Part shown: positions 14,461-25,929 of the stretch, piece by piece | Layout: each line of letters starts with the position of its first letter | Numbering within the stretch: position 1 is the first letter of the stretch | NCBI GenBank assembly: GCA_023663945.1 | Contig: JAMPGL010000028.1 | Location: 1 to 51,451 of the forward strand | Source of the DNA: Lachnospiraceae bacterium | Lineage (GTDB): Bacteria; Bacillota; Clostridia; Lachnospirales; Lachnospiraceae | Length of the DNA stretch: 51,451 nucleotides | Direction: 5' to 3' | Made by a program: the position numbers and the translations under genes | Notes under the pieces: generated by a model | What the model saw: the letters and a program-made list of their open reading frames with translations, nothing else | Told to the model about the DNA's origin: nothing | The model's database searches: none

Positions 14461-14736
14461 ATGCCAGCAAATGCATTTATAGACAATGCCAAAGTTATGG
14501 CAAAAGGACAAGTCACAATTCCAAAAGACATCCGGGAAATCCTCGGCGTAACAAGCGGTGACCGCATTACATTCATTGTTGAAGGGAGTACTGTCCGCAT
14601 TGTTAATTCTGCAATATATGCTATGCAAATGTTGCAAAAAGAAATGTCCGGAGAAGCAGAACGTGCCGGATTAAATTCAGATGATGATATTATGGCACTT
14701 ATAAAAAATATGCGAAATGAGGACGCAAATCTATGA
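14461..14736 (+). CDS. AbrB/MazE-like antitoxin
   Basis: The 91-aa protein has an N-terminal SpoVT-AbrB swapped-hairpin DNA-binding domain (KGQVTIPKDIREILGV, SGDRITFIVEG). An acidic helical C-terminus (about 55-91) would wrap the toxin. It overlaps the PIN gene by ATGA, the standard arrangement of antitoxin then toxin. A dyad in its promoter suggests autoregulation. Confidence 0.88.
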   Translation: MPANAFIDNAKVMAKGQVTIPKDIREILGVTSGDRITFIVEGSTVRIVNSAIYAMQMLQKEMSGEAERAGLNSDDDIMALIKNMRNEDANL

Positions 14737-15134
14737 GGGTTTTGATAGATACTAATGTCTTGATTTCTGCCGCGCTCAATGCTGATGGCATTCCTTTTCA
14801 AGCATATGCAAAAGCAGCGTCTTATCCCAACCACGGTCTGATTTGCGAACAAAATGTAGATGAAATGACACGGATATTTAACAAAAAATTTCCCAATCGT
14901 CTTAGCGCGCTAAATAGATTTCTTTCTATTGCACTTTTAACCTTAGAGTTGGTTCCCATTCCAACAGATGAAACTATTTCTGAAACGCAAATCCGTGACG
15001 TAAATGACCGTCCAATTTTGCGAGCCGCCATAAACGCCAAAGTCGATATTCTCCTTACCGGCGATAAGGATTTCTTGGAATCCGGCTTGGAGAATCCCAT
15101 GATTATGACACCTGCTGAATTTCTAAAATATTAA
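14733..15134 (+). CDS. PIN-domain toxin (COG1569-like)
   Basis: The 133-aa PIN-fold ribonuclease has the first acidic site in LIDTNVLISA (Asp6), a mid-protein Glu in NVDEMTR, and DVNDRPIL and LTGDKDFLE near 90-110. These form the Mg-binding acidic cluster of PIN/VapC nucleases. It is translationally coupled to the AbrB-like antitoxin. The target RNA cannot be deduced. Confidence 0.87.
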   Translation: MRVLIDTNVLISAALNADGIPFQAYAKAASYPNHGLICEQNVDEMTRIFNKKFPNRLSALNRFLSIALLTLELVPIPTDETISETQIRDVNDRPILRAAINAKVDILLTGDKDFLESGLENPMIMTPAEFLKY

Positions 15135-20321: not shown

Positions 20322-20576
20322 TCGTTATCCCCCGTTTGCCTGCATGATTTATCTGCGCTTGTACCAAGTATAAATGCGGTACAAACAACTATAATAATTT
20401 TAACATCGGCTGATAAGTCCGTCAATATGGACGCTCTTACTTATCACGATAAACACATAAAAAGCTCCATATCCAAAAAGATGGACAATATCAGCGACTT
20501 TATGGTAAAATGTCGAATAGGAATAATAAGTCATATCGAAACCCTCTATATGTTATTTATTTTACCATTAAACTAA

Positions 20577-20603
20577 TGTAAAATGAATAAGAAATGTTTT
20601 ACA
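20577..20603 (+). promoter_or_regulatory. Inverted repeat in the leader of the RelA/SpoT-like operon
   Basis: TGTAAAA (20577-20583) and TTTTACA (20597-20603) are perfect arms with a 13-base spacer, ending 14 bases before the start codon. It could be an autoregulatory operator or a weak leader hairpin. The rest of 20322-20617 shows only short AT-rich repeats. Confidence 0.45.
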
Positions 20604-20617
20604 AATGAGGCTTTTAT

Positions 20618-21535
20618 ATGAATATTACAAAAGAACAATTTTTTGCAAAATATGGCATTTCAGAAAATCAATTATCAAATGCGCAATTATCTTGGGATGC
20701 GTTATGCGAAATAGCCGAAGATTACGAATTCAAAATTAAAGAATTTTATGATCCACTAAGACAGGATTTTATCAAAAATTATTTTCTGAATAAGGAAAAC
20801 GAAATCGGATTACAGTCCTACCGAAGCAGATGCAAAGCTCCGGAGCATGTTATCGAAAAAATCATACGCAAACGAAATGACAATTATTTAAAATATAAAG
20901 GCATCAACAAAGATAATTATTCTCATTATTTAACAGATTTAATTGGCGTCAGAGGATTATTATTATATCGGGAAGACTGGATAAAATTCCATGAGTATAT
21001 CATGCGCGAAATAAAACCCCGAGAAACTGGTTATATTAAAGACAGTGCACAGGATTATGTAAATGACGGGTCTATTTTTATGGCAGAAGAGCCTAAAGTC
21101 CATATTCGCACAGGAGATTATTACGAAATTTACGTAAACAGAATCCCCTTGGATAATATTTTAGATCACAAGCACTATCGTTCTATACACTATATTGTGA
21201 ATTATAAAGGTGCATATGTCGAAATTCAAATACGTACATTGTTAGAAGAAGGCTGGGGCGAAATTGATCATGACATTTTATATCCTCATAAATTAGATAA
21301 TCAAATGTTAAAAGAATTCTCCGAACTTTTAAACAGACTTGTCGGCATGGGCGATGAGATGAGTTCCTATTATAAACGCCTTGAGAAGGTTCCCGAGAAT
21401 GAATTTCTTTCCAAAAAACAAAGTATAAAAAAACCGTCAATTGATAGTTTACATTATATTCAAGGGCATAAGAAGAAAGGGCAGGAAAACTGCAAAACCT
21501 TTCACGATGTCATAAACTACATTATCAAAGAATAG
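20618..21535 (+). CDS. RelA/SpoT-domain (p)ppGpp synthetase-like protein, toxSAS candidate
   Basis: The 305-aa protein has the synthetase fold without an HD hydrolase domain. Motifs seen are YLTDLIGVRG (Asp107, Arg112), KHYRSIHY (Tyr187-His191, the guanine-stacking Tyr loop), VEIQIRTLLEEGW (Glu202) and EIDHDI (215-220). The catalytic positions known from RelSeq therefore appear intact. N-terminal (1-65) and basic C-terminal (255-305) extensions flank the core. Small alarmone synthetase toxins of this type make alarmones or pyrophosphorylate tRNA ends. Two small genes follow in the same operon (10-base gap, then overlap), suggesting an antitoxin or effector partners. GAGG is 7 bases before the ATG. 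Confidence 0.82.
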   Translation: MNITKEQFFAKYGISENQLSNAQLSWDALCEIAEDYEFKIKEFYDPLRQDFIKNYFLNKENEIGLQSYRSRCKAPEHVIEKIIRKRNDNYLKYKGINKDNYSHYLTDLIGVRGLLLYREDWIKFHEYIMREIKPRETGYIKDSAQDYVNDGSIFMAEEPKVHIRTGDYYEIYVNRIPLDNILDHKHYRSIHYIVNYKGAYVEIQIRTLLEEGWGEIDHDILYPHKLDNQMLKEFSELLNRLVGMGDEMSSYYKRLEKVPENEFLSKKQSIKKPSIDSLHYIQGHKKKGQENCKTFHDVINYIIKE

Positions 21536-21545
21536 GAGAAAAGAT

Positions 21546-21767
21546 ATGTCTCGTGTTAACGGAATTAGTGCAGATGCAATCACTGCTGGAAACAGGATGT
21601 TAGAAATGATTCGTAATGGTAAAGTAAACGAGCACATCATGACAAATAGCTCTTTATACCGCCACGAGGATATTGAGCATGCAGAAATGATTCAATATTC
21701 AGATTTTATCAAATCTAAATGGGGATATGACTTATTACAATTAAGCGGGAATAACACATATGAATAA
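21546..21767 (+). CDS. Small protein of the RelA/SpoT module
   Basis: The 73-aa soluble, mildly acidic, probably helical protein starts MSRVNGISADAI. AGGAG lies seven bases before its ATG. It begins 10 bases after the RelA/SpoT-like stop and overlaps the next gene by 8 bases. Its size and position fit an antitoxin for the synthetase, but no family is recognised. Confidence 0.65.
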   Translation: MSRVNGISADAITAGNRMLEMIRNGKVNEHIMTNSSLYRHEDIEHAEMIQYSDFIKSKWGYDLLQLSGNNTYE

Positions 21768-22326
21768 TATTGAATCATTATATATATCATACGAACCAAT
21801 ACTCCTAGAATTTACCGAGGAGAAAGTCCAGTCAAGGTATCAGAATATTTATCAGGAATTAGAGACTTTTATATCAGAATATTCTCTTACTGATAAGTTG
21901 AGAATTGATGAAACCTTGTTAACGCATGCTGTTTTTGATTATTATACTGATATCTCCCGCCTTAAAAAACTGCACCAGATTAAGAATGTCAATGAAATAA
22001 AAGTCTGTGCATACGAAAGTTTCTGGCTGCTGCGAAGACATCCTATCCAAATCACAATTAACCCTGCCGGAGAAGAAGCAATTGTTTTTGCTAATGAAAA
22101 ATTTTTTTTTTCAAAAATATCTCAATTTTTGATGCAGGAACATGTTAATGACGAGATTGATCCCGAGCATCGTAAAAGTATAATTAACTTTTTTGATATG
22201 CTTTACTACTACTTAAAATATCGGGATTGCAGTGCACAGATGTTGGAAATGTTTTTAATCAGCTTTAAAGCCGGAATTATCATAGGTGAAAATTGCGCCA
22301 ATCAGAAAAGAGACAGGGTCAGTTGA
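21760..22326 (+). CDS. Unknown protein of the RelA/SpoT module
   Basis: The 188-aa soluble, predicted mostly helical protein is rich in Tyr/Phe and acidic residues, with a central YESFWLLRRHPIQI motif and FFDMLYYYLKYRD. No family is recognised. It overlaps the 73-aa gene and has only a weak ribosome site, so it is probably translated by coupling. It ends inside an intrinsic terminator shared with the converging MATE gene. It is a candidate antitoxin or phage-sensing component of the three-gene module. Confidence 0.65.
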   Translation: MNNIESLYISYEPILLEFTEEKVQSRYQNIYQELETFISEYSLTDKLRIDETLLTHAVFDYYTDISRLKKLHQIKNVNEIKVCAYESFWLLRRHPIQITINPAGEEAIVFANEKFFFSKISQFLMQEHVNDEIDPEHRKSIINFFDMLYYYLKYRDCSAQMLEMFLISFKAGIIIGENCANQKRDRVS

Positions 22327-24897: not shown

Positions 24898-25210
24898 GAG
24901 TGTATCCTCCTTTTTGTCCCTGATAATTTTGCATCGGCCTTTGCTGATTTCATCTTATCAGGAAAAAGCGGATTTCTCAATTGAGCGGATATTAACTTTT
25001 AGGAATATTTTTTAACTGCTATTCATTATTTTTCATAAATAGTTCTCTGAGGTCGGCACACTTATGATTATCTGTCCGCTTTTCTTTATGCTATGTAAAT
25101 TACTTTACTAAAAATTTAAATTTTAAATGGCGCAAACTTTTCTATTATTTTTATTGCTTTCCGAATGACATTGTAATATAATTGTCTTACAAATGAGAGG
25201 AGGTTTTATC
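24898..25210. other. Divergent promoter region, 313 bp
   Basis: The region lies between the XRE-TPR gene (minus) and the RelB-like/PIN pair (plus). It contains AAAATTTAAATTTT near 25109 and the toxin-antitoxin promoter at 25154-25192. No gene is supported. Confidence 0.6.
25154..25192 (+). promoter_or_regulatory. Promoter/operator of the RelB-like/PIN pair
   Basis: -35 TTGCTT (25154-25159), 17 bp and -10 TATAAT (25177-25182) are overlapped by the inverted repeat TTGTAA (25171-25176) / TTACAA (25187-25192). Antitoxin autorepression is inferred. Confidence 0.65.
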
Positions 25211-25519
25211 ATGGCTACTTCATTATTACAGGTTCGTATAGACGACTCTTTAAAAGACGAGGCTGCGCAGGTCTTTGAACGTTTAGGAATAGATACATCT
25301 ACCGCTGTAAGAATGTTTTTGAAACGTGCAATTCTGGAAAATGGCATTCCTTTCAAAATGACTCTTCCCAAAGCACCTTATAATGCCGAACGCGGGTATC
25401 GTGCTATGGTCGAAATTGGAGAGGCCTCTGAAAAGAATGGTCTGGCAGATATGTCTCTGGAAGAAATCAATGCCGAGATTGAAGCTTCCAGAAATGCGCG
25501 CCAGGCATCCGCTCAATGA
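25211..25519 (+). CDS. RelB/DinJ family antitoxin
   Basis: The 102-aa protein is a ribbon-helix-helix type: strand LLQVRIDDSLKDEA, then FERLGIDTSTAVRMFLKRAI and NGIPF, the RelB/DinJ signature. An acidic helical C-terminus would bind the toxin. The start at 25211 follows AGGAGG by 7 bases; the upstream in-frame codon at 25193 lies in the ribosome site. It overlaps the PIN gene by 4 bases. RelB-type antitoxins usually pair with RelE/YafQ, so the PIN partner is a swapped pair. Confidence 0.88.
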   Translation: MATSLLQVRIDDSLKDEAAQVFERLGIDTSTAVRMFLKRAILENGIPFKMTLPKAPYNAERGYRAMVEIGEASEKNGLADMSLEEINAEIEASRNARQASAQ

Positions 25520-25929
25520 AATACTATGCAGTATTGGACACTAACGTCCTTGTCTCTGCTATCTTAAAAACCGGCTCGGTACCCGGTCAGATTATGGCAG
25601 AAGCATTAAACGGTGTCATTATTCCCGTTCTTAATGACGAGATTATTACAGAGTATGAGGATGTACTAAACCGCCCCAAGTTTCGTTTTGATAAAAAGGC
25701 TGTAAAAGTTCTTTTGGATGAACTTAAAAAACGTGCTGTCTACTCTGACTATGGATTGATTGAAGATGAAATCCCTGATTCAAAAGATGTCATTTTTTAT
25801 GCAGTACTAATGGAAAAGCGCAAAGAAGAAGATGCCTATCTTGTAACCGGAAATATAAAACATTTTCCCATGCGGACATATATTGTAACCCCTCGGGAGA
25901 TGCTGGAAATCATTGGAGAGGGTAAATGA
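25516..25929 (+). CDS. PIN-domain toxin
   Basis: The 137-aa COG1569-type PIN nuclease has AVLDTNVLVSAI with the first catalytic Asp (Asp8), mid-protein DEIITEYEDVL, SKDVIFYAVL, and the end motif LVTGNIKHFP. The third acidic site is less clear because the usual D/E in GDKD is replaced by GNIKHF, a common variant of this subfamily. It is coupled to the RelB/DinJ-like antitoxin by ATGA overlap. Confidence 0.87.
   Translation: MKYYAVLDTNVLVSAILKTGSVPGQIMAEALNGVIIPVLNDEIITEYEDVLNRPKFRFDKKAVKVLLDELKKRAVYSDYGLIEDEIPDSKDVIFYAVLMEKRKEEDAYLVTGNIKHFPMRTYIVTPREMLEIIGEGK

Follow-up and report, generated by a model that had tools for sequence, protein, structure and literature searches.

A RelA/SpoT-type synthetase and two partner proteins of unnamed families in a Lachnospiraceae bacterium: a candidate toxSAS-like module

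We analysed a stretch of 51,451 nucleotides from a Lachnospiraceae bacterium (positions 1 to 51,451 of the forward strand of contig JAMPGL010000028.1, GenBank assembly GCA_023663945.1), hereafter the window. It contains three tightly packed genes on the plus strand, whose products we call P1, P2 and P3. The first open reading frame (ORF), with an ATG start (20618-21535), encodes P1, a RelA/SpoT-type synthetase of 305 aa and the putative effector. It is followed by the ORF of P2 (21546-21767), a small partner of 73 aa that may act as an adaptor or antitoxin, and by that of P3 (21760-22326), an almost all-alpha protein of 188 aa, common to all the variants described below and a putative sensor or stabiliser. 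The gap between P1 and P2 measures 10 bases, with an AGGAG motif that overlaps the P1 stop codon, and P3 begins with an ATG before P2 has ended, so that the two ORFs share 8 bases. This overlap (21760-21767), read directly from the sequence, has the commonest P2/P3 length among P1-type relatives (12 loci) and may reflect translational coupling. A previous examination of the same DNA, made from its letters alone (the sequence-only reading), had described a tight operon of 305-, 73- and 188-aa genes with intact synthetase motifs, no hydrolase domain and partners of no known family, and our analysis agrees with it on each of these points.

P1 passes the cut-off of the Pfam family RelA_SpoT (PF04607, 46.8 bits versus a cut-off of 27), the only Pfam domain for which it does so; no hydrolase (HD) or regulatory domain was found. 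The motifs GVR, YRSIHY, EIQIRT and EIDHDI are all present, and 13 positions are identical in the 52 aligned rows (R71, K73, K81, D107, G110, R112, Y187, H191, E202, Q204, E211, H218 and Y222), some of them presumably catalytic. The AlphaFold2 (AF2) model of P1 (predicted local distance difference test score, pLDDT, 89) matched best the fold of Staphylococcus aureus RelP (3.8e-9), then that of Bacillus subtilis RelQ and, further down, that of CapRel (7ztb, 2.2e-6). The eight PDB chains matched by sequence profile at E 0.01 were of the RelP/RelQ type, and the best phage family was phrog_2211 of PHROGs (1.5e-30). Kyte-Doolittle hydropathy, the only predictor used for this purpose here and below, gave no transmembrane (TM) helix in any of the 52 rows. 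With its RelA_SpoT domain, conserved catalytic-type residues and no HD domain, P1 looks like a small alarmone synthetase, for which synthesis of (p)ppGpp or (pp)pApp and modification of tRNA are all possible activities. Three more RelA_SpoT matches occur in its own genome, in open frames of 777, 375 and 248 codons. The longest is presumably a long Rel and, therefore, P1 is probably dispensable for the ordinary stringent response. One of the other small alarmone synthetase genes of this genome (L002, G000:C37:33664-34026) is apparently fused, as judged by eye, behind a response-regulator receiver-like domain.

P2 and P3 had no convincing family in Pfam, NCBIfam, PADLOC or PHROGs, and their profiles only found chance-level matches among PDB sequences. 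P2 has a well conserved core (G25, N34, E44, Y/F51 and F/Y54 in alignment A4, 45 rows) and P3 has seven invariant positions (D64, W89, N112, E113, Y150, R155 and E163 in alignment A2, 74 rows). The AF2 model of P3 (pLDDT 91.2, predicted template modelling score 0.85) is almost entirely alpha-helical, and its fold search gave no significant match (the lowest E was 1.0 against the PDB and 0.47 against a viral library). TM helices were predicted in none of the 74 P3 rows. Matches of single P3 rows in Pfam, NCBIfam and PADLOC were rejected because each concerned 1 or 2 of the 74 members and bore unrelated names. We also considered the ABC-3C middle component, Panacea and SecB for P3, and neither family nor fold searches supported any of them; in Pfam at E 0.01, DUF4065 matched none of the 74 members. 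Proteins of the SAH, Tis1-like, pZFD and Panacea types were found neither in P2 (by sequence only) nor in P3 (also by fold) nor in the 74 P3 rows, a search that very diverged versions could escape. YXXY, a recognition motif in toxSAS antitoxins, lies near the N-terminus of P3 in 6 of the 13 rows from loci with a membrane effector (see below) and in 26 of the 61 others, and anywhere in 69 of 74 P3 and 11 of 45 P2 rows; since it is spread across most P3 rows, we did not retain it as a diagnostic link to ATfaRel2.

The three-gene layout, in which the middle partner is small and the third protein larger, recalls the toxin-antitoxin-chaperone (TAC) systems. CmdTAC and the TAC of Mycobacterium tuberculosis are described as tripartite with SecB-like chaperones. 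In a strict TAC, P3 would be a chaperone dedicated to P2, the unstable antitoxin. A natural fusion in which the first half of P2 is joined to P3 (L073, a protein identical to that of L023), the sole real fusion that we saw, suggests that both act together, as this explanation would have it. However, P3 is an almost all-alpha protein without known fold, SecB was not among the 50 of its 75 PDB fold matches listed, and no SecB family was found in the 74 members at E 0.01, so we regard a strict TAC as very improbable. A second apparent fusion, the long P3 frame of L072, was discarded: there, the P3 frame is merely extended backwards across P2, which is encoded in a different frame of its own.

A search with the P3 profile in a genome contig collection led to 138 confirmed relatives, the best 80 of which were fetched; all the locus tallies given here rest on these 80, which include some near-copies (e.g., L125 and L126). 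They comprised 56 loci with an intact P1, 3 with a broken P1 (L082, L120 and L076, the last of which also loses part to the contig start), 2 in which the contig ends within P1, 13 where a membrane protein takes the place of P1, 2 without effector (L083 and L099) and 4 with P3 at a contig end. In all the 56 loci with intact P1, P2 was present and placed between P1 and P3 (54 detected by a hidden Markov model, HMM, one in L072 by inspection and one in L073 as the fusion). P1 thus has adjacent and conserved partner genes, as toxic small alarmone synthetases (toxSAS) do, and the recurrence of the same gene order in many other genomes places the operon beyond chance; the sequence-only reading had suggested such a comparison of neighbourhoods. 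Loci L155 and L051 differ in order, with a P2-like ORF (seen by eye and missed by the HMM) 5' of P1 and P3 directly after P1. Pairwise divergences of the three proteins were correlated (P1-P3, r 0.889 over 49 loci; P1-P2, 0.856 over 35; P2-P3, 0.868 over 41; 0 of 2000 permutations in each case), which speaks of joint inheritance rather than contact, as shared descent alone can give the same result. P1, P2 and P3 almost certainly act as one unit.

Most P3 relatives come from Lachnospiraceae, accompanied by Treponema, Desulfovibrio, Synergistales, Fibrimonadales, Oscillospiraceae, Atopobiaceae and others, as named in the records, which are mostly metagenome-assembled genomes. The P3 profile was found in 20 of 397 genomes of the family, 4 of 37 of the same genus, 5 of 391 of the class and 2 of 398 of the phylum, the own genome being counted in each. 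A first search for P1 had found relatives in 16 of 200 family genomes, own included. Among the larger stretches obtained from it, L021, L022, L033, L034 and L035 carried P1-P2-P3, L023 the P2-P3 fusion, and nine others had no P3. With the P1 profile, P1 was detected in 30 of the 397 family genomes, 16 of them with P3 beside it (14 with an intact P1). Scans of genome and viral contigs with the single P1 sequence gave 64 and 16 pattern-matching stretches, respectively, none of which was confirmed, whereas alignment-driven scans did find relatives.

In the 13 loci with a membrane effector, the gene before P2 encodes a small multi-TM protein in place of the synthetase, an arrangement seen by eye also in L160. 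Eleven of these effectors are intact (151-215 aa, 3-4 predicted TM segments) and align with that of L160 as one very divergent family; the ten that were checked had no Pfam match above cut-off. The remaining two, in L095 and L119, are fragmentary beside intact P2-P3, L095 being classed in this group by its P2 and by a 44-aa remnant that resembles the end of the L119 effector. P2 changes together with the effector: a TM helix is predicted at its N-terminus in all 13 TM-type loci and in none of the 41 other P2 rows (40 P1-type and the orphan pair of L099). In the P3 tree, the TM-type rows cluster, with 4 label changes, of which the starred branches force only 1. Because two unrelated effector types occur with P2-P3, and the anchoring of P2 tracks the effector type, the pair resembles a control cassette whose effectors can be exchanged, in which P2 would meet the effector and P3 would be the constant part. 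In two class-level loci (L157 and L158), a P3-like gene is followed by a 2-TM protein with weak likeness in PADLOC to 2TM/4TM/SLATT effectors (E about 1e-3), possibly a third effector type.

Several loci retain P2-P3 beside a damaged or missing effector. P1 is split in G339, with intact P2 and P3 (its P2 sequence is the same as that of L120), and also in L082 and perhaps L076, beside intact P2-P3. In L083 (5300-6519), an N-terminal fragment of AbiH (Pfam PF14253, 1e-11) stands at the place of P1, directly before P2-P3. An Azospirillum plasmid has a P2-like ORF, recognised by eye, before a distant P3 (27% identity), and tblastn found no P1 relative in that record. In L099, P2-P3 stand without effector; a nucleotidyltransferase and a substrate-binding (HEPN-like) protein are encoded beside this orphan pair on the opposite strand (L099:1848-2517). 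Outside the clade of solitary P1 proteins discussed below, 0 of 14 intact P1 genes are without P3. Where visible, decay appears to be one-sided, with loss of the effector and retention of P2-P3, a suggestive pattern only.

We read P1-P2-P3, with moderate confidence, as a toxSAS-like toxin-antitoxin or abortive-infection-type module with unnamed partner families. P1 would be an active small alarmone synthetase and a growth-arresting effector, whose toxicity we hold to be somewhat more likely than not. P2 would bind the effector, via the C-terminal tail of P1 in the window and beside the membrane protein in the TM variant. The soluble P3, constant throughout, would bind P2 and hold the effector off, or else sense the trigger. 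Inhibition of the effector through binding by its partners, as in type II toxin-antitoxin systems, would agree indirectly with the gene overlap and with the effector decay seen beside intact P2-P3 in some loci. If the hold of P2-P3 were lost, perhaps through a phage product binding P3 or P2, the effector would be freed and growth would stop. We would put a phage trigger of this kind somewhat below an even chance.

Several observations weigh against a toxic or defensive module. P1 is closest to RelP/RelQ by both sequence and fold, and FaRel2 was absent among the 50 of its 56 fold matches listed at E 0.001. By itself, the likeness to RelP/RelQ does not argue against toxicity, since normally exported alarmone synthetases, makers of (p)ppGpp included, inhibit growth if kept inside, according to an extract of the work on them (PMC12691689). 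No PADLOC model convincingly fits the module and no clear defence island surrounds it. It is flanked in the window by hydrogenase-maturation genes and a MATE transporter; a PIN-domain ORF (14733-15134) and, on the opposite side, a RelB-PIN pair (25193-25519 and 25516-25929) lie about 3-6 kb off. The tie between the two kinds of P2 is weak in places: the P2 HMM finds 8 of the 13 TM-type P2, and 4 of these 8 were in its build, which leaves 4 of 9 as independent detections; the five missed were assigned by place and size. The asymmetry of effector decay is only suggestive because independent events are few. We withdrew G181 as a clean case because, besides a truncated P1, it has a shortened P3 and no P2 could be found. 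G022 is degenerate throughout, with remnants of P1 and P3 only, and the absence of a P1 match in G358 (P3 cut), G240 (P3) and G076 (P3 fragment) counts against one-sidedness. Last on this side of the balance, relatives of P1 also exist without the partners, a finding that the sequence-only reading had itself named as damaging. An intact P1 without P3 is kept in 14 of the 30 P1-bearing family genomes; when this solitary clade is counted in, P3 is missing beside 14 of 28 intact P1. The relatives of P1 on prophages and plasmids (the latter from Firmicutes, Fusobacteria, alpha- and beta-proteobacteria and one Persicobacter) are without P2-P3 too.

This last objection is a partial one, however: the 14 solitary proteins form one clade (support 100/100), which, in a tree with outgroups, falls among P3-bearing rows (96/92), with lower values for its exact sister (49/33); the P1 trees were built without named toxSAS or named fpRel sequences. 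All of them also lack the C-terminal tail of the window's P1. That tail (approximately residues 258-305, positions 21389-21532, plus strand) consists of a low-confidence linker and a last helix (295-304; pLDDT of the tail 51-79 in the AF2 model), a putative docking segment for P2/P3. Inspection by eye showed that a (T)xxDAIxSVIxE-like end (DAI or DCL-like) is shared by all 21 near P1 rows that come with P2-P3, that of the window among them, and by none of the 14 solitary proteins; more distant P1 rows carry other tails. The simplest reading is that P2-P3 and the tail were lost together, once, which makes the tail a putative docking site. Events may also have run the other way, because P3-less plasmid relatives lie near the base of the tree, with weak support, and the rooted tree leaves unsettled whether the ancestral state was with or without P2-P3.

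Alternatively, P1 may be a non-toxic, regulated alarmone synthetase that P2/P3 would switch on or off upon sensing a metabolic or envelope signal, the TM version being a separate signalling output. The closeness of P1 to RelP/RelQ agrees with this possibility, as does the retention of a related clade without partners in 14 genomes, and the three further synthetase genes of the own genome, one with a frame of 777 codons, would make an accessory signalling role possible. Nonetheless, we find it unlikely, because the patchy occurrence (4 of 37 genomes of the genus), the exchange with a membrane effector, some effector decay and the viral copies of P2-P3 fit conflict systems better.

These viral copies come from three contigs with P3 (L056, L198 and L199), all accompanied by P2 (found by HMM in L198 and L199 and by eye in L056). 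The pairs are located at L056:4720-5498, L198:4758-5573 and L199:4705-5543, and profile searches of the three whole records, which did recover positive controls, detected neither P1 nor the multi-TM effector. The pair of L056 lies just before a gene that we read as HNH-like and a terminase small subunit (Pfam PF05119), and that of L199 before genes read as a head-joining protein and a portal. They are possible phage-borne antidotes. Another explanation, compatible with a toxSAS-like module, is that P2-P3 are phage-derived or phage-targeted, either as a phage antidote to a host effector or as a host decoy of a phage component. The copies without effector and their position near terminase, head-joining and portal genes agree with it. 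Yet the contigs number only three and may each be fragmentary, an effector of another kind could have escaped, and the pair of L198 is about 200 bases behind a 294-aa membrane-like protein; we hold this explanation to be rather doubtful. Relatives of P1 were found in 53 other viral contigs (L200-L252), and the HMMs detected neither P2 nor P3 in the stretches fetched from them. Of the 53, 51 yielded a P1 ORF; 40 of these ORFs are 332-502 aa long, and the seven of that length that we looked at by eye have a long, partly coiled-coil-like C-terminal extension. The three-gene units thus have beside them a broader family of synthetases that is rich in prophage members.

More tentatively, the toxSAS-like reading can be extended to P2-P3 as an unnamed portable immune cassette, composed of P3 as the constant sensor or inhibitor and a matching P2 adaptor, that would control unrelated killers: the alarmone synthetase, the multi-TM membrane protein and the 2-TM protein at two distant loci. 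The effector-free phage copies would then be antidotes, and the bacterial synthetase would once have been domesticated into a free enzyme through loss of the cassette together with the docking tail.

Two features of the surroundings concern the site rather than the module. Genes within 1.5 kb of hypB vary among 8 same-genus genomes, none of which has the module at that site. The 7-bp inverted repeat noted by the sequence-only reading upstream of P1 (TGTAAAA and TTTTACA separated by 13 bases, 20577-20603, without assigned strand; arms at 20577-20583 and 20597-20603) is real, but we rejected it as a signal because an equally good one occurs in 62 of 558 AT-rich 60-mers of the window and in 20% of shuffles. 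No such repeat was found in the 90 bases 5' of the called ORF start in 8 relatives, some of these starts being mechanical. Three half-sites (ATTTTAC/GTAAAAT/TTTTACA) spaced by about 19 bases at 20559-20603 might form an operator, in a region type where, as said, inverted repeats of this quality are common.

The comparison with known systems is based on extracts of the papers cited. Antitoxins of the known toxSAS are SAH, Tis1-like, pZFD or Panacea proteins, and FaRel is paired with two antitoxins (PMC11782079, PMC8832971). The module resembles toxSAS systems (FaRel2/ATfaRel2, FaRel, PhRel, PhRel2/PanA and CapRel) in having a single-domain synthetase, as putative toxin, beside small partners, which are two in number as for FaRel (PMC11782079). 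It differs in that P2/P3 match no SAH hydrolase, Tis1-like, pZFD/ATfaRel2 or Panacea protein, that their relatives also pair with an unrelated membrane effector, and that the sequence of P1 is nearest to RelP/RelQ. The Panacea antitoxins (PanA, DUF4065) are one family that pairs with many unrelated toxins, including toxSAS and membrane proteins (PMC8832971). The P2-P3 cassette likewise pairs with a synthetase and a membrane protein, but P3 has no DUF4065 match in Pfam, there is an extra partner, P2, whose anchoring follows the effector type, and the effectors sampled well are of two types, with a possible third seen twice. CapRel is a fused toxSAS that senses phage (PMC9712102, PMC11578894); its fold resembles that of P1 (E 2.2e-6 with 7ztb), whose relatives are common in viral contigs. 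Unlike in CapRel, the control parts are separate genes here, and the last 48 or so residues of P1 form a low-confidence tail, with no C-terminal pseudo-zinc-finger domain. Finally, the taxonomic spread of the plasmid relatives of P1 resembles that of fpRel (Atkinson 2011, PMC3153485). P1 is likened to fpRel/cloRel by distribution only, and the extract of that paper describes no P2-P3 partners for them. Our searches of an open-licence library, which misses most subscription papers, found no description of P2-P3 or of this arrangement; to that extent, the opinion of the sequence-only reading that the arrangement is undescribed holds. Its proposal of a candidate toxSAS or anti-phage system holds in part: a toxin-antitoxin-like or defence function is the best explanation available, but a modular cassette that also occurs with a membrane effector is not merely a toxSAS variant.

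The toxSAS known so far have antitoxins of few types, and what is new here is a P2-P3 cassette that occurs with unrelated effectors. If our interpretation is correct, gut Lachnospiraceae and, judging from record titles, members of several other phyla would possess a reusable cassette for triggering their own arrest. The clade of solitary P1 proteins would then allow a direct comparison between a controlled and a freed version of the same enzyme, and phage-borne antidotes would be predicted.

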